NCBI RefSeq assembly: GCF_001316265.1
Contig: NZ_BBDN01000011.1
Location: 1 to 64,000, forward strand
DNA from: Vulcanisaeta sp. JCM 16159
GTDB lineage: Archaea; Thermoproteota; Thermoprotei; Thermoproteales; Thermocladiaceae
Direction: 5' to 3'
Length of the DNA: 64,000 nucleotides
Shown: in pieces, positions 4,839 to 37,104 of the stretch
Layout: every line of letters begins with the position of its first letter
Position numbering within the stretch: the first letter of the stretch is position 1
Made by a program: the position numbers and the translations under genes
Notes under the pieces: generated by a model
What the model was told of the DNA's origin: nothing
Seen by the model: only the letters and a program-made list of their open reading frames with translations
Database searches by the model: none

Positions 4839-6549
4839 CACCTGGGTACCTGAGGTCGACCCTGAACCCCTCAGGAAATATGACCTCCTCAAGCCACTTG
4901 CCTGACGGTACGAAGGGCAGAACGAAGTCCCTCTCCCTATCAATGGTTATGTCGACAATCAACGCCTCATTATTCCTAACGGCCCTTGCCACGGCGCTCC
5001 TCAACTCCTCATAATTACTTGGCCTAACACCCTCTATTCCATAGGCCTCGGCTATCTTCATGAAGTCTGGATTTACGTTGAAGTCCACGGCAATGATCCT
5101 CTTATTATACAGCATTACCTGCCAATGCCTGACGAGCATTAGCGTTGAATTGTCAAATATGGTTACTATCACTGGTAGGTTGTATTCACGGATTAAGGCC
5201 AGGTTCTGCATGGTCATTTGGAATGAGCCATCACCATCAATGTCCAGTACTGGGACATCCGGCCTAGCAATCTTTGCGCCTAGGGCGGCGGGTAATCCGA
5301 AACCCATTGTACCAAGGCCCGCGCTAGTTATGAAGGTTCCAGGTACGTAAACATCCCAATGAAGTTCGCACCACATTTGGTGACTGCCAACGCCGGTGGC
5401 TATTATTGAATGCGGCGGCATCACCTCCCTAAGGACCTTCAGGACCTTCCATGGCGCAAATCCATTAATATCAACCTTGCTCCTATACTCCTCATAATTC
5501 TCCTTAATACCCCTTAACCACCTAATGAATGCCTCGTGCCTCCTCTCAAGGGCCTTGGGCACGAGTTTAATCATTGTTGATAACACGGTCTTCGCATCAC
5601 CGGCAATACCAACCTCAGGCTTTACATTCTTGCCAATTTCACTTTTATCAATATCGACATGTATTATCTTCCTACCCCTCCTAAACTCGTTGAAGTTACC
5701 CACGGTTCTGTCACTGAACCTTGTGCCGACCGCCAATATTACATCGGCATTTATTATGGCTGCATCGGCCTCAAGCTACCGTGCATCCCCGAGGCCCCAT
5801 AACCAGTGGGTGGTTATTTGGCACACAGTTCTTACCCAGCAGTGTGGTGACTATGGGCATGCCTAGTAACTCGGCGAGGGTCAGGACCTCATTGGTAGCG
5901 CCGCTCCAGCATACACCGCCGCCAATGAGCATTACAGGTCTCTCAGCATTAAGAAGTAACTTGAGTGCGTAGGCAATCAGTGATGGGTCTGGCTCTGGGG
6001 CTATTTTCCTGGTTATTCGTATAGTTCTTGCCTTAATAACCGCTGGGTCGACCTCCATTAACTGAACATCTCTCGGCAGGTCTATGACCACAGGACCTGG
6101 CCTTCCATCAATCGCTATCTCATGAGCAGCCTTATACACGGGCACCAAATCCTCCGGTTTTCTAACCATGAAGGTATGTTTAGTGACAGGCATCGTTGCA
6201 CCAACAATGTCTGTCTCCTGGAAGGCATCCCTTCCGAAGAATGCCGTTGGTACTTGACCAGTTATTGCAATTAATGGTGATGAATCCATCATGGCATTGG
6301 CAAGGCCGGTCAGCAGATTTGTGGCGCCTGGACCTGACGTGACGACCACGGTCATGGGCCTCTTCGTGACCCTGCCGTAGGCATCAGCGCGTGTATTGCG
6401 CCTTGCTCATGCCTAAACATATAAACCTTAATATTAGAATTATATAATGCATCAAAGAACGGCATTATCTGACCACCAATGATACCAAAGACCTCCTTAA
6501 CACCTATACTCTCCATCTCCCTAACGAGTAGGTCAACCGCCCTGGGCAT
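4822..6549 (-). CDS. ilvB: Acetolactate synthase large (catalytic) subunit
   Basis: Thiamine-diphosphate enzyme making acetolactate or acetohydroxybutyrate, the first common step of branched-chain amino acid synthesis. The N-terminus VKEVFGIIGGQIMPFFDAL contains the ThDP-binding region and is followed by the active-site stretch FRHEQGAIHA (catalytic Glu). TSGPGATNLLTG, the central domain LLNAERPVMLIGGG, and the C-terminal GDGSFQMTMQNL (the GDG...N ThDP-Mg motif) complete the family signature. About 576 residues, normal length. Start ATG 6549 is chosen because AGGTGAT, complementary to the 16S 3' end, lies four bases upstream. Frameshifts near 6385 and 5775 split the gene and are probably sequence errors. 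First gene of ilvBNC, divergent from the leuA-type gene. Confidence 0.93.
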
Positions 6550-19362: not shown

Positions 19363-19481
19363 GGGGCCGTAGTCTAGCCTGGCTAGGATACGTGGGTTCA
19401 ACACGCCCGAAGCTCGGCTCGGGATCTAGGGAAGGACGCGAGCCCGAGTGATCCCGGGTTCAAATCCCGGCGGCCCCACCA
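19363..19481 (+). tRNA. tRNA with intron(s), probably tRNA-Pro(CGG)
   Basis: Acceptor halves GGGGCCG (19363-19369) and CGGCCCC (19471-19477) pair perfectly and are followed by A and an encoded CCA. The D arm (GUCU...GGAU, 19372-19389) and T arm (CCGGG-UUCAAAU-CCCGG, 19454-19470) are canonical. The gene is 119 bases, about 41 too long, so it contains intron sequence. One consistent reading puts the anticodon stem at CUCGG (19413-19417) and CCGAG (19444-19448) with loop CUCGGGA (19418-19424): anticodon CGG, Pro. That leaves about 22 extra bases after the D arm and 19 after the anticodon. I could not build perfect bulge-helix-bulge motifs by eye, so identity and intron borders are tentative. Confidence 0.8.
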
Positions 19482-23919: not shown

Positions 23920-25035
23920 TCACCCCTCTGGCAGTAGTCTCCTTATTATGGCGTAGTATAGGGCTAACGTGAATATTGCGTGAATATAATCGTCGAGAGG
24001 AGCATTGTGTACATGGCGATTAGGGGCAGCGGTATGAGTGTGTTTAGTAACTGCGTTATTGGTACGCCTGAGCCACCGCTTATGAATAGGTATGGGTACC
24101 TGGACCCGTCATTAACGTACTCCATGAGCACGAGTACGGCCTCCGCGAGGAGGCCCGTGCTAATTACGGCCGGTCTGACGACCCTACCCTGCATTACCGC
24201 GTAAAAGGCGTATAGGGCTGCGGCGCCCAGGGCTATGGTGAGGGCTATCGCGGCGTAGAAGGCTGGGTAGAACATGGCCGTGCTAGGGTCATAACCGAGT
24301 AATGGCCCCGCAATGTTGCTGGCTATGTATGGGTCGTACCTCTCGAGGACTGTGAAGTAGTAGGCCCCGGCAATGGCCTGTGGCACTAGTAGTACTAGCC
24401 GGTGCCGAGGGCGATCCTCACACCCCTAATGTCTAGGTTCCTCCTAGTCGCCAGTACCGAGGCTGTTACGAAGCGCCTATGTCCATGGCGCCAATTAGCG
24501 TGTGGGCAATGAGCGGTGGGTATACAGGGTTTGAGAAGACTGTGAGTGGGTTGAGGTCCCCCGTGACGTACTGTGGGTAATCAAGGCCCGCGAAGAGGTA
24601 CCTGAAGCCCACTGGTACGAGTAGTACGGATATGGCGAGTGGCACGCCAATTAGGCTGTGGGTCCTTGGGCTGACCCTACCCCATAGGTGCCAGTAGATG
24701 GCTATGAGCGGTATGCTCAGTAGTATGCCGACGAGGGCTATGGCTATTGGGTAGAAGTAAACCTTCGTGAATATCGCAGTCATTGATGGGAAGAGCCCCG
24801 CCATGAACACGGTCAGTATCGTGCCCCAAACACCGCCAAAGAGCTCCGTCACCACCATGAGCCTGAACATGTCCCTGGCCACCGACTCGAGACCTGGGTC
24901 CCTGCGTAGGTAGGCCAGGTACCTGGTTATTACCGTGAGCACTGTGGCCCCTATTATCACGTTAACGAAGACCAGGTGCATCTCCAGGGCGAAACCAAGC
25001 ACGGCAAAGGAGAGTAGGGCGAGGTAACTACTCAT
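23920..25035 (-). CDS. CydA'-like second subunit of an archaeal cytochrome bd-type oxidase
   Basis: Membrane protein of about 370 residues with many hydrophobic helices. It starts SSYLALLSFAVLGFALEMHLVF, a CydA-like first helix with E and H, and continues with ARDMFRLMVVTELFGGVWG and IYWHLWGRVSPRTHSLIG. It ends near YYAIIRRLLPEG after a frameshift near 23975; another break lies near 24425. It follows CydA with a 4-8 base overlap. It does not look like a typical CydB. Murali, Gennis and Hemp described archaeal oxidases built of CydA plus a CydA-derived CydA', shown for Caldivirga to reduce oxygen. This pair matches that arrangement. Assignment as CydA' is inference from helix pattern and neighbour. 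Confidence 0.72.
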
Positions 25036-26685
25036 GACCACCCACCCCAGCCAACTCCCTAACCCTATCCAGTAGGCTTGGTCTCGTAGCTACGTAGTAC
25101 ATGGCCAGGGCCCCCACAACAGCTATCGCAAGTAGTATGGCGACCACGAAGGCCACGAAACCCGGCGTTATTGCATCACTCGTTACGACCTCACTTGTGG
25201 TTATCAAGCCATAGACCGTCCACGGCTGCCTACCAACCTCCCTCGCGGCCCACCCGGCCGTGGCCGCTATGCCGATAACACAGCCATTGCCGAGGCCAGG
25301 AAGGCATTACATTGTCGGCGCCTATCAATACGCCCAGTATTTCGTTGTTTATGAAGTCCGTTATTGCCGATAGAATAGGTACCCTCACGAGGTATGTGAA
25401 TAGGGCGAGAACGGCGGCTATTGCCAGTAGTATTCCCGCACCAATCATTGTGTAGTAGAACGCGCTCACCAGCGGCGCCAACGGCTCCAAGGAGAGAACC
25501 GCGGCCTCGCAGTTCTGGGCTAGCGTCACGTTTGTCAGGGGCCCGAGGTAGCCCAGCATCCCTGGGTCGAGCTCGCCATAGAGCTCGCCGAAGGTGGTGT
25601 TGCCCAGCGCCCTGCATTGGCTTAGGTAATAATTGAAGCCGTGGAGTGGGTGGTATGGGTTTCCATAGGCGAATAACGCCTCCGCTGGGTCATAGTACTC
25701 ATACCCATAGACCCTGGGCCTCCTGTCAGTGTGGTTAGTGCCGTGAACTTGAGCGGTTGGTATGCCACCACGTCATCACCCATGAAGTGACCAAGGACTA
25801 TGGGCTCGATGATGAGTACCACAACGAGTATCCAGAGAAGGGGCTTTAGTAACTTGGTGTACTTACTGTCGTGGGTCCTGAAGAACCTTATCGATATTGC
25901 CAGGGCCACGGCGCTACGCCGATTGCGTAGGCTGCGAATAATGTGTGGAGTGTGGTCACTACGGCGTCGGGGTTAACCATGGGTAGCCATGGGTTCGTTA
26001 GGTATGTACCGACCAGTGATGTGAAGTTTGTGCTTGTTAGGGCGACTGAGCCCGAGCCATCTACCGTGTAGTGCAGGAGGAGTGCGGCTAGGTTTAGTGT
26101 CGCGGTTAGGTTTGCGGTGTCTGGACCGTAGCTCGGTAGGAATGGGTATAATGCGTGTGGTATCCCGCCCATCCCCCAGGGAACGTTCATCCAGGCATTC
26201 GCCGTTAGTATGAAGTACCCGGAGAGTGAGCCGAGGAGCCAGGCCGCGATTAATATACTGAGTGTATACCTCGCCCTCCACCTGCCTATGGCGATTATGA
26301 AGAGCACCACGAGAACCGCCTCGCCTATGAAGGCTATGGTGGCTTCGTAGAGGAGTGGGATGAAGGCTGAGGAGGAGAAGAGTAGTATGCTCGTTGGCCA
26401 GATGTCCAGTAGGCCGAACTCCACTATGGTGCCTGTGACGGCGCCGAGGGCGAAGTTCACGGCCCAGACCATGGTTAGGGTCTTGGAGTAATTGAGGAAT
26501 AATGCGTCGCCAGTCCTGTACCACTTAATGAGCCAGGTGAGTATGGCCAGTGGAAAGCCCAGCGTGAATGATACGAAGACCGCGTGTAGGTAAATGCCGA
26601 TTATGGTCATGACCATTGCGTTACTAACGTTGGTACCATGCACGTAAATCTCACTAAGCACTCCCAAGGTTGAGTTAGTCATCAT
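25028..26685 (-). CDS. cydA: Cytochrome bd-type quinol oxidase subunit I (CydA)
   Basis: Haem-bearing catalytic subunit of a bd-type oxygen reductase in the cytoplasmic membrane. Seen: YLHAVFVSFTLGFPLAILTW (conserved His), PLLYEATIAFIGEAVLVVLF, GYFILTANAWMNVPWG, GHFMGDDVVAYQPLKF (quinol-site QP-K-F), and near the C-terminus GWAAREVGRQPWTVYGL, a CydA hallmark. About 552 residues. Several frameshifts (about 25900, 25740, 25600, 25300) interrupt it, but the order of motifs is intact. The stop overlaps the start of the CydA'-like gene. A TATA-like box is at 26700-26712. Role: oxygen respiration or oxygen detoxification using quinol. Confidence 0.88.
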
Positions 26686-26699
26686 GGTATTACCTAGCC

Positions 26700-26712
26700 C
26701 CTTAATTAAAAG
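26700..26712 (-). promoter_or_regulatory. Probable TATA box of the cydA operon
   Basis: CTTTTAATTAAGG on the minus strand, 15-27 bases upstream of the first Met codons of cydA (26685). It is the only A/T-rich element immediately upstream. Confidence 0.4.
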
Positions 26713-26868
26713 TGCTTAGGTATTGGTTATTCATTATAGTTGGTAGTTTCCAGTTAAATTCAGTGGCGATGGGGCTTGGATTTATTTTGTTATTCAACGG
26801 TATTCATTCGAATGCGACGTGGCATAACCCCAGCAAAAGTTTTTCTCTACCTAGGCTATGTATTACTC

Positions 26869-27800
26869 GTGAATTACTGGCTTGTCATTATGAGGGAAAG
26901 GGTCTTCATGGGCATTGTCGAAACGGGCCTATTTGGTTGCCGTGACCCAGAGTGCGGCCTGTTAATGACTAGGGTAAGGCCCGGCACACGCCTTGTGCTC
27001 TTCGTGAGCGGCTTCGGTTGTAAGTCCTACTGTAAGTCCTTCGTGGGGGTTTTCGAGGTTGTTGGTGATTGGGTTAAGGCTGGTAAGAAGTTGAATGATT
27101 GGTCCCACGTGGTTGAGGTAAAGCCGATATCCCTGGGTAGGGTTGAGCTTGGCAGCATCGCCAATAACTATCGTTCATTAGGGGTAGGAGGGGCATTACC
27201 GAGGCCCTGCACTCCGTGGATCCATCCAACCCCAGGGCCATGCCAATGCCCGTTGAGGATGCGGAATTGATAATTAATGAGTTGAGGAACCAATCAATGC
27301 CCAAGCCCGTGATCGAGGTTTTGGGGACTCCAAAGGGCGGTGCTAAGGAAGTTGTTGGTGGGGTTGATTCAACGGGTGCCAAGGCAGGCGCCGAGGCCCT
27401 AGGCATTAGCGAGGCGGTGACGTTATTGAAGGAGGCAGCCCAGTTATTTGGTTATTACCCAGTCAGTAACGTGGATGCGGGTGAGTATAGGCTTGACCTT
27501 GCCTGGTGGGGTAATGAGGATGAGTATAGGGATGGGTTGGCGCCGCTGGCTGTGTTTGAGGTTGTTGATAACCCCGAGCAGGCATTGGCTAGGCTTAAGC
27601 ACGCGAGGGACAAGTGGAGGGGCGTCAGGCTATACGCCATTGTTAAGGATGAGAATGCTGAGAGGGTGTTGAGGGGTTCGTTCCATGAGCTTAGGAGGAG
27701 GGTTAGGGTGATACTGCTTAGTGAGCTTAGTGGGCTTGTTCGGGACCTTAGGAATCATGGTGAGTTGGTTAGGGAGTTCGTGATGTTGGATAAGGACTGA
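26869..27800 (+). CDS. EVE-domain protein fused to a PD-(D/E)XK-like domain, candidate modification-dependent nuclease
   Basis: About 310 residues. The first 115 fit an EVE (PUA-like) domain: VNYWLVIMRERVFMG at the start, RPGTRLVLFVSG, GVFEVVGDWVKAGKKLND, and VEVKPISLGRVELGSI. EVE domains read modified bases in DNA or RNA. After a helical linker, the C-terminal part has RLDLAWWG (Asp at strand end) and LAPLAVFEVVDNPEQALARL, then RLYAIVKDE. This alternation resembles a PD-(D/E)XK nuclease core with E-V-V in place of E-x-K, so catalytic competence is uncertain. The start GTG 26869 is placed where EVE domains begin (YWL), with a T/A-rich box upstream. A frameshift near 27195 joins the two parts. 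Divergent from cydA. Confidence 0.65.
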
Positions 27801-27839
27801 AGAACGTCATTGGTTGAACGGTTGATGCCTTCGACTAAC

Positions 27840-28095
27840 CCCGGCCATATTCATAGTCTCGGTCCTTGACATGCACTTCTCGCACAACAATAAGCCTAAT
27901 CACCGACTCCCCCTCATACTAGCCTCCCACTCACCAACCCTGCTCACCAGGCCCCTGGGCGGCACAATATTTGGCCACGTAACCGACAGAATCGGTGAGG
28001 GATTACTAACGCATTATTCCTTGGTTTACGCATCAATGATTGAATCCTCGATTACTACCCTAGTGATGGCGTTAATGGCGCTCTTAGGGGTTTGA
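27840..28095 (+). pseudogene. Remnant of an MFS transporter
   Basis: A fragment reading LTRPLGGTIFGHVTDRIGEG matches the cytoplasmic loop-2 signature of major facilitator carriers (R-P-x-G-G-x-x-F-G-x-x-x-D-R-x-G). Hydrophobic sequence follows (ESSITTLVMALMALLGV). No start, no remaining transmembrane domain before or after, so only one or two helices survive. Downstream codons run into a separate remnant. Interpretation: old, decayed transporter gene. Confidence 0.55.
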
Positions 28096-29471: not shown

Positions 29472-32312
29472 ATGAGCAATTTCTGGAGTAGGTACCTACA
29501 CCCAAGGCTTGTGAATACAATTAAGGAGTTTGGTTACCTAGAGCCAACGCCAGTCCAGGAGAGGGCCATACCCAGGGTGCTCGGCGGCGCCAATGTCCTA
29601 ATCACCGCGCCCACGGGAAGCGGCAAGACCGAGGCAGCCATGTTCCCAATAATGAGCAAGATACTGAGCGGGGGCTCGACTGGGGGTGTCGCGGCGATTT
29701 ACATAACGCCCGCGAGGGCGCTCAATAGGGACGTGAACGTTAGGCTCAGGGAGATAGCCAATAGGCTGGGTATAACCACGGCAGTTAGGCACGGCGACAC
29801 ACCGGAGAGTGAGCGTAGGAGGCAGGTTAGGGAGCCACCCACGATACTCATAACCACGCCGGAGACACTCCAGGTTATCCTGGTGATGAGGAGTATGAGG
29901 AGGGCGCTCAGGAATGTTAGGTGGGTGGTGGTTGATGAACTCCATGAGTTGATGAATGACGAGAGGGGCGCCCAACTATCCATAGCCCTGGAGAGGCTCG
30001 TGAACATAGCCGGTGAGTACCAGAGGATTGGGCTCTCCGCGACCATTGGAAACACCGAACTAGCCAGCCAGTTCCTAGCAGGTGTGGGTAGGAGGGTGGA
30101 GGTGGTGAGTGTGGACGTGAGTAGGGAGATGGAGATAAGCGTGGAGTACCCAGAGGCCTCCGAGGAGGACGTGGGCTTGGCTGAGGAGTTGAACACAATG
30201 CCAGAAACAGCCGCGAGGCTCAGGAGGATAGCCGAGATAGTTGGTGCTCACAGGGCAACCCTGGTCTTCACGAACACGAGGGACGAGGCAGAACTACTGG
30301 GGCATAGGCTCGGTAGGGTGTTCAGCGACAACGCCGTGGGCGTCTACCACGGATCACTGGACAAGGAGGAGAGGGAGGGCCTTGAGGAGGGCCTGAGGAG
30401 TGGTAGAGTTAGGACCGTGGTCACCACGTCGAGCCTCGAGCTGGGAATAGACATTGGGCACGTAGACGCCGTAATACAGTACTCAAGCCCGAGGCAAGTC
30501 GCAAAGCTAATCCAGAGGGTCGGCAGGAGCGGGCATAGGCTTGGTAGGAGGGCCGTTGGTTACGTAATTGCCAGGGACACCGACGACTACCTCGAATCCC
30601 TCGTAATCGCCAGGAAAGCCCTAAACAACGAGTTGGAGAGGGAGGTTGAGTACCACGAGAAGGCCCTCGACGTGCTCCACCACCAGGTCGCAGGCATGGT
30701 GATTGAAGCCAAGATAGAGGGCAGGGCATTGACTGTGGGTGATATCTTGGGCACAGTGAGGAGGGCACACCCATACAGGGAATTAACGCCTGAGGAGCTC
30801 ATGGAAGTCCTGAGGTTCATGGAGGGAAACAAGCTCGTCAGGGTCAACGAGGACGGAACAATAACCCCAAGGAGGGGACTCCACAGGTACTACTTCGAGA
30901 GCATCTCCATGATACCAGACCAAAAACACTACAGGGCAAGGGACATGATCACGAACAAGGCAATAGGCGAGCTAGACGAGGAGTTTGTGGAAACCACGGA
31001 ACCGGGCACACAGATAATACTAGCGGGCAGGCCCTGGAAGATAGTGAGTATTGACCGCGGGAAGGGCGAGGTAATACTCGAACCACTGAACCAAATCCTA
31101 AACGCAGTACCCACCTGGATCGGCGAGGAAATACCAGTACCAACCGAGGTAGCCCAGGAAGTATGCAGGCTAAGGGAGGAATTAATAAACGCCATAGCCA
31201 ACGGCGCAGGCCCAGCCACGGCATTGGCAAAATACCCAACGAGGGAGATCCCCAACCCACTCATCGAGGAACTGAGGCAACAGGCGGGTACGGAGGTCAC
31301 GGAATTCACCAACGCAGTAATCATCGAGTGGAGGGGTAGGGACGCCGTGATCCACGCATGCCTAGGCACCAAGGGAAACCAGGCACTGGCCCTATACCTA
31401 GCCAGGCACATTGGGCAGAGGTATAGGGTCGCCGTGACCTACGTCACAGACCCATACAGGGTACTCATAACAACACCAATAAGCATACCACCCCAGGCAA
31501 TAACCGAGACCCTAAACCAAAGCCCGGACTACGTGGAGGGGGAGTTGAGGGAGGCCATAAGGGGCACCAGGCTGTATAAGTACAGGTTCATACACGTAGC
31601 AAGGAGGTTCGGGGTACTGCCGAGGGAGTCCGTGGATGTGAACATCGAGAGGCTAGCCACCGCCCTCAGGGACACCGTGGTGGATAGGGAGGTCATTAGG
31701 GAGATACTCACCGAAAAGGTGGACTCAACACCCCTCAGGCAATTGGTGAGCAGTGTCAGGGAGGGGAGAATAACGGTTAGGGTCGTTAAGGTCGAACAAT
31801 ACACGCCAATAGCCCAGCACATAATAAACCAAGCGGGCAAATACGACACGGCAATCCAGGGAATACCAACAACCACAATCCTACAACTACTAAAGAAAAG
31901 AATCGAGGAAAGGGAAGTAACACTACTATGCCTAAACTGCGGGTGGCACACAACAACCAAGGTCAAGTACATACCAGAACAAATCAAATGCCCAAGATGC
32001 GGAATGAGACAAATAGCCGTACTAAAGTACGGGGAAGACCCACGAAGAACCTACGAAATAGCCAGGAAAGCCAGGAGAAAACAAAGACTAACAAGGGAGG
32101 AACAGGAAAAATGGCAAGAACTAACACAAACAGCCTAGCAGTCCTACAATACGGCAAAAAAAGCCATAACAGCCCTGGCAGCACACGGAGTAGGACCAAC
32201 AACAGCAATAAGAAAAATCCTACCAAAAGCCAAAACAGAACAAGAACTCTACCAACAAATCCTAGAAGCAGAACGACAATACCAACGAACAAAACCCTTC
32301 TGGAACGAATAA
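29472..32312 (+). CDS. Lhr-family superfamily 2 helicase with C-terminal zinc ribbon
   Basis: Large helicase-related protein for nucleic-acid repair or RNA metabolism. Motifs in order: Q-motif area EPTPVQERAIPRVL, Walker A APTGSGKTEAA, TPARALNRD, VVVDELHELM (D-E-x-H), LSATIGN, TNTRDEAELLGHRL, TSSLELGIDIGHV and QRVGRSGHRLG. The Lhr-specific C-terminal region contains a Cys4 zinc ribbon, CLNCGW...CPRCGM, near residue 820. The frame is open for 888 codons, unusually clean for this window. A TAG at 32136 then interrupts, but the same frame continues to 32312 with typical Lhr tail sequence (LAAHGVGPTTAIRKILPKA), so I extend to 32312. The strand here is unusually A/C rich. Confidence 0.88.
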
Positions 32313-32477: not shown

Positions 32478-33990
<1,513 letters not shown>

Positions 33991-34020
33991 TGGGGATGGG
34001 GTGTTCAAAGGGGGTTGGGT
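33991..34020 (+). other. 3' strand of the pre-16S processing stem
   Basis: TGGGGATGGGG, T, GTTC, AAA, GGGGGTTGGGT, complementary to 32449-32477 with the bulge-helix-bulge described there. It shows that the 16S precursor is excised by splicing-type cleavage. Confidence 0.8.
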
Positions 34021-34039
34021 GGTACCCACCCTGACCAAA

Positions 34040-34053
34040 CCACCACCCGCACC
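34040..34053 (+). repeat. 23S processing stem, 5' strand
   Basis: CCACCACCCGCACC is the exact reverse complement of 37091-37104. The two arms enclose the 23S gene and form its processing stem. The 16S-23S spacer is only about 65 bases and has no tRNA. Confidence 0.8.
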
Positions 34054-34055
34054 AG

Positions 34056-37088
<3,033 letters not shown>

Positions 37089-37090
37089 CA

Positions 37091-37104
37091 GGTGCGGGTG
37101 GTGG
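37091..37104 (+). repeat. 23S processing stem, 3' strand
   Basis: GGTGCGGGTGGTGG, perfect complement of 34040-34053. Downstream to 37330 the strand is extremely G/T rich with short T runs (near 37148 and 37160) that may terminate transcription. No gene lies there. Confidence 0.8.

Follow-up and report, generated by a model that had tools for sequence, protein, structure and literature searches.

An EVE-nuclease fusion gene beside a cytochrome bd operon in Vulcanisaeta, and its relatives with a candidate relocated catalytic lysine

Introduction

EVE domains are of a type known to recognise chemically modified bases. Fusions of an EVE domain to a PD-(D/E)XK domain were predicted to be type IV restriction enzymes by Bell, Wolf and Koonin (2020; PMC7641849), and the same paper, in its abstract and the sections compared here, reports YTH-like-PD(D/E)XK fusions and archaeal EVE proteins encoded beside a DUF499/COG1743/SNF2 system. 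The EVE-PD(D/E)XK fusion as a predicted type IV enzyme is already published there and is not new. Three further described systems are relevant in the parts of their reports drawn on here: VcaM4I, an EVE-HNH endonuclease which depends on modified cytosine and has the pocket residues P24, W82 and Y130 (PMC7897488); the COG4636 PD-EXX-K nucleases of Feder and Bujnicki, in which the catalytic Lys has moved from strand 3 to a neighbouring helix and which include E-x-D lineages without the Lys (PMC551604); and the DUF499 systems, which a 2026 paper ties to BREX (PMC12839542). Among the literature titles and abstract openings searched (mostly open-access), none concerns a Thermoproteales EVE-nuclease family or its relocated Lys.

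Here we describe a member of this class from Vulcanisaeta sp. JCM 16159, encoded in a stretch of 64,000 nucleotides (positions 1 to 64,000 of contig NZ_BBDN01000011.1; henceforth the window) from a draft genome of 28 contigs that is 63% complete. An earlier note, made from the letters of the window alone, had proposed an EVE reader fused to a PD-(D/E)XK-like domain as a candidate modification-dependent restriction enzyme of a crenarchaeon. We show below how this locus compares with its relatives across the phylum, and argue that the proposed function should be judged separately for the wider family and for the Vulcanisaeta branch.

Results and discussion

One gene with a single frame break

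The gene lies on the + strand and starts with a GTG at 26869, from which it reads VNYWLVIMRERVF... in frame +1 to about 27165. This segment (26869..27165) covers the first two thirds of the EVE domain and carries two cysteine pairs, C-x4-C and C-x3-C. The remainder is in frame +3 from about 27168 to a TGA stop at 27798-27800, and comprises the end of the EVE domain (...AMPMPVEDAELIINEL) with a linker (27168..27365, delimited by alignments and by a PH1033 profile match that reaches position 145), after which comes the domain for which a PD-(D/E)XK fold is predicted (27366..27797). The single break from frame +1 to frame +3 was placed at 27160..27180 by means of the orthologues in two single-contig genomes, G007 and G003, where the gene is an intact frame of 319 and 328 codons, respectively; the counterparts of the C-terminal window piece inside these frames are 84% (G007) and 82% (G003) identical to it. 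The idea that the EVE and C-terminal parts belong to distinct genes, or were joined by accident and are not one protein, has in its favour only their different frames in the window and is exceedingly improbable, as both parts share a single open frame in G007, G003, G023, G025, G031 and G036; these relatives rule it out. Thus, the window locus is one gene encoding an EVE-PD-(D/E)XK protein, in line with the fusion across one frameshift read in the earlier note.

Such breaks are common in this draft: six of 11 compared conserved genes of the window are broken, with 11 breaks over 3502 codons, i.e. 1.05 per kb. One break in the 0.93-kb EVE-nuclease gene is what this background predicts, and the break is therefore probably noise.

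Divergently adjoining the gene are two cytochrome bd subunit I-like genes (23926..26697, - strand), with three frame breaks each, across an intergenic stretch at 26698..26868 whose limits vary with the start codons chosen and which has blocks of similar appearance in G007 and G003. Downstream, on the + strand, lies the remnant of an MFS transporter gene (27835..28026), the counterpart of the gene that in G007 and G003 lies 3' of the EVE gene; in V. distributa JCM 11216 this transporter gene is likewise present as a fragment only. Elsewhere in the window the 16S and 23S rRNA genes lie in tandem on the + strand (32480-37102), an Lhr-type helicase gene (29472-32138) ends about 340 bases upstream of them, and a 116-base tRNA match at 19363-19478 is reported by Rfam and not by ARAGORN; its length suggests that it contains an intron.

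The EVE domain

The Pfam EVE model PF01878 matches the 115-residue N-terminal window piece with E=1.2e-4 and 22.6 bits, narrowly missing the cut-off of 23 bits, and the G003 orthologue with 22.5 bits; the NCBIfam model PRK00809 matches the same window piece with E=3.5e-8 and 33.2 bits, far below its own cut-off of 139 bits. Three of six tested relatives (L007, L008 and L013) pass the PF01878 cut-off with 27.7-47.5 bits, while a fourth, L003, falls narrowly below it and the remaining two, L009 and L014, carry front ends of another kind. Thirteen relatives picked for their EVE-like front ends were combined into a profile (A3), which matches the archaeal EVE structure PH1033 (1wmm) over positions 2-145 with E=5e-19. 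The N-terminal domain of the window gene accordingly shows the EVE/PUA fold, and the EVE-type N-terminus recognised from the letters alone is supported.

The Vulcanisaeta rows are nine residues short in a loop that bears a W in 11 of the 13 aligned rows. Since in the profile alignment standalone EVE structures also have no W at this loop position, the shortening may or may not affect base binding by the Vulcanisaeta EVE. The C-x4-C pair can be read directly in five of the six Vulcanisaeta orthologues, the stretch being broken in JCM 14467; the C-x3-C pair found beside it in this branch is common to four other aligned rows.

The predicted nuclease domain and its active site

The C-terminal window piece has no match in Pfam or NCBIfam, and searches of Pfam, NCBIfam, PADLOC and PHROGs with the window pieces and with sets of 8 and 5 proteins gave no convincing match for the nuclease domain. 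Its structure model, together with VIA structure matches of middling quality, predicts a PD-(D/E)XK-type fold with the core order helix, three strands, helix, strand; the five best VIA matches are proteins of the PD-(D/E)XK fold. The PD-(D/E)XK-like domain proposed earlier is in this sense upheld, and both motifs named for it, the D of LDLAW and the E-V-V of FEVV, are present in the window as described.

In an alignment of 61 domains, 55 of them ungapped at the key columns, the predicted metal-binding Asp of LDLAWW in strand 2 (27495..27497) is D in 47 of the 50 rows ungapped there, and the predicted Glu of E-V-V in strand 3 (27558..27560, the motif extending over 27558-27566) is E in 53/55 rows. 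Further downstream are the His-Glu of a G-(S/A)-F-H-E motif (27684..27689), recognised from the alignment and the window reading, and, in the helix after strand 3, the Lys of L-K-H-A (27597..27599), which is K in 38/55 rows. The canonical Lys position of E-x-K is occupied in the window by the Val of E-V-V (27564-27566), and none of the 55 rows has Lys there: the third residue is Q in 21, H in 16, V in 8, E in 4, S in 2, and N, R, D and M in one each. The five rows with an acidic residue all lack the helix Lys and form one clade (support 0.969).

Given that this third residue varies and is never Lys, that the helix Lys is common, and that COG4636 offers a precedent in the part of its report considered here (PMC551604), the aligned sequences suggest that E-V-V is just one of the forms which a variable position takes and that the helix Lys, rather than this position, is the candidate catalytic residue. 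The domain of this family appears to be a second instance of the PD-(D/E)XK fold with its catalytic Lys relocated, and the new catalytic variant which had been offered as one explanation of E-V-V fits the family. The natural sub-clade with E-V-E/D and without the helix Lys provides a comparison set for such a relocated-Lys site. Separately, a locus with an EVE-like start in G027 (L038; G027:C1:650163-650555) has V, M and R at the E, X and K positions, having lost both the Glu and the helix Lys, and is likely a second inactive copy.

Phyletic spread and genomic associations of the family

Of 398 genomes of the phylum, 56 are matched by a profile of the domain; the window's own genome and those of one distant group are among them. 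The profile also matches an Acidobacteria MAG. The distant group (L105-L110; e.g. in G211, G093 and G079) is matched with E about 1e-11 in open frames of 263-392 codons, has E-V-Q or E-V-H and an L-Q-(R/K)-A in place of L-K-H-A, and is probably a separate nuclease family. The front ends joined to the nuclease domain vary: besides EVE, there are zinc-ribbon-like regions in L009 and L014 (below cut-offs), an Mrr_N domain in L053 (34.9 bits, cut-off 29.5) and a winged-helix-like region in L052 (below the cut-off).

Proximity to methyltransferases was searched for two families, the Eco57I-type and DUF1156. With the window's ortholog group set aside, the order has 14 loci, and ten of these have an Eco57I or DUF1156 match within 10 kb, where 0.34 would be expected by chance; beyond the order the association is a weak one (3/27 genomes). 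Within the order, the genes found nearby encode type IIG-like enzymes (PADLOC REase_MTase_IIG, up to 1328.9 bits), BrxL, DUF499 and an SNF2 helicase, and the neighbouring DUF1156 methyltransferase shows similarity to HmaB (170.9 bits). At one locus (L074 7008-13536, in G031) the genes for the EVE-nuclease, a type IIG-like enzyme and BrxL are consecutive on the same strand. Elsewhere in G003, the genome of one of the single-frame orthologues, L040 and L046 (G003:C1:2222222-2222482) represent the remnant of a different, second family member, with a stop codon and with the E-x-X part missing.

The loci near methyltransferases suggest that these family members are type IV companion nucleases, and a type IV-like companion nuclease is the reading we favour for the family as a whole. 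Under this proposal the front end would recognise incoming DNA by a mark or a sequence that it bears, the nuclease domain would cut this DNA using the Asp, the Glu and a Lys supplied from the following helix, and the enzyme would back up a methylation-based system. With no convincing Pfam, NCBIfam, PADLOC or PHROGs match for the proteins tried, counts of defence genes in thermophilic archaea can easily overlook the family. The earlier proposal of a modification-dependent restriction enzyme is well motivated for the family; for the window gene itself it is doubtful.

The Vulcanisaeta branch

The gene has six Vulcanisaeta orthologues, namely those of the window, G007, G003, V. distributa JCM 11217 and JCM 11216, and Vulcanisaeta sp. 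JCM 14467; the presence of the same gene in the last three, which are named strains, also bears out the crenarchaeal host guessed from the letters. In all six the same cytochrome bd operon divergently adjoins the gene, and none has an Eco57I or DUF1156 match within 10 kb, although some of the contigs stop short of that distance (the 40,306-base contig of G002 about 6 kb from the gene); as far as this search extends, the window branch lacks a defence-gene neighbourhood. The closest outgroup is a Caldivirga copy (G023) together with the G014 copy (support 0.897), with a methyltransferase match 4.3 kb from the former and 8.9 kb from the latter, and the stem branch of the Vulcanisaeta group is long (0.905). 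A gene for a PLD-like domain protein (PF13091) lies two genes downstream of the EVE-nuclease in G007 (L072 10692-11726), and likewise occurs in G003 and JCM 14467.

In pairwise comparisons, the EVE piece has a dN/dS of 0.13-0.17 (5 pairs) and the C-terminal piece one of 0.17-0.27 (9 pairs), compared with 0.09-0.30 for eight neighbouring genes: both pieces of the Vulcanisaeta orthologues are under purifying selection. This signal bears on whether the gene is a decaying relic heading for loss, with the frame break and the change from Asp to Gly as steps of decay. Such decay would be in keeping with the break in the window, the copies spread over several frames in three draft genomes, the Asp lost in 3/6 orthologues, the downstream MFS gene, of which the window and JCM 11216 have only a remnant, and the absence of the gene beside cydA in four (G010, G011, G005 and G006) of the ten genomes of the genus that have a cydA at least 70% identical. 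However, the dN/dS values lie at 0.13-0.27 in all 14 pairs computed, both single-contig genomes retain a single frame, and the cytochrome bd genes are broken at least as often; on account of the selection signal, we consider decay unlikely.

The catalytic Asp itself differs between close strains: the window, G003 and JCM 11216 have a GAC codon for it, whereas Gly stands at this position in the other three orthologues (single-contig G007, JCM 14467 and JCM 11217). None of the six has lost the Glu, the helix Lys or F-H-E. Around 5465-6423 of the JCM 11217 locus (L065) there are, at several places, extra glycine codons (G runs) relative to the orthologues, which were probably introduced when that draft was sequenced or assembled.

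These observations have to be weighed against the possibility that the window gene encodes an active type IV nuclease, whose EVE domain would flip out a modified base and whose PD-(D/E)XK domain would cut, with the helix Lys replacing that of E-x-K. The window copy has the Asp, Glu, helix Lys and F-H-E, both pieces are under purifying selection, and methyltransferases lie near ten of the order's 14 other loci; moreover, both the EVE-PD(D/E)XK class (PMC7641849) and sites with a relocated Lys (PMC551604) are described in the parts of the literature drawn on above. Nevertheless, the Asp has been lost in half of the orthologues under similar selection, the EVE loop that bears a W in most aligned rows is shortened, and no Eco57I/DUF1156 methyltransferase is nearby. 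For these three reasons the label of restriction enzyme is doubtful for the window gene, and an active type IV nuclease seems to us possible but not the better bet.

We instead propose that an ancestral Vulcanisaeta may have captured such a nuclease beside the cytochrome bd operon, away from methyltransferases of the Eco57I/DUF1156 type, and that the gene would then have been inherited with conserved synteny and under purifying selection, while its reader loop was shortened and the catalytic Asp became dispensable. Most likely, therefore, the window gene encodes a repurposed protein that binds nucleic acids and cuts them weakly or not at all, instead of an active modification-dependent restriction enzyme; we put the chances of this at about even, and between repurposing and active restriction in the window branch we regard repurposing as somewhat likelier. 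Against it stands the window copy with its Asp, Glu, helix Lys and His-Glu all present, for which reason nuclease activity of this copy can still be entertained; the retention of the Glu, the helix Lys and F-H-E in all six orthologues would be surprising for a site that has no use. A more specific form of repurposing, in which the domesticated defence nuclease became a regulator that binds DNA or RNA without cutting and ties expression of the respiratory genes to a redox or nucleic-acid signal, is a long shot: it is speculation from the divergent oxidase operon, which has about 170 bp of intergenic DNA in common with the gene, and from the C-x4-C and C-x3-C pairs. The occurrence of Asp or Gly at one site in close strains forms a natural series, by which the passage from restriction enzyme to another role becomes directly testable.

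Comparison with known systems

The NucS/EndoMS nucleases and AF1548 (PDB 2vld, 5gke and 1y88) are 9-14% identical to the domain described here; they have an E-x-K site and are not known to carry an EVE domain. VcaM4I shares with the window protein the combination of an EVE sensor and a nuclease, but its nuclease is of the HNH type and not PD-(D/E)XK, according to the part of the report used (PMC7897488). The DUF499-centred (Hma) systems, as presented in the compared part of PMC12839542, find their like beside relatives of the window gene: DUF499 and a DUF1156 methyltransferase adjoin a Vulcanisaeta relative in G010, and a DUF1156 match adjoins another in G005. Hma is in these cases the system of the relatives' neighbours, whereas the window gene has no such neighbour. 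The COG4636 nucleases have the PD-(D/E)XK fold that is predicted for the present family and, as proposed for it, a Lys relocated to the helix, and their E-x-D lineages without the Lys resemble the E-V-E/D members found here, so far as the consulted part of PMC551604 describes them. The EVE-PD(D/E)XK fusions of Bell, Wolf and Koonin have the same architecture, archaeal occurrence and defence context, with EVE proteins likewise found next to the DUF499/COG1743/SNF2 system; relative to the abstract and sections of that paper that were compared (PMC7641849), the features added here are the candidate relocated Lys, the varied front ends, the type IIG and BrxL neighbours, and the Vulcanisaeta branch linked to cytochrome bd.
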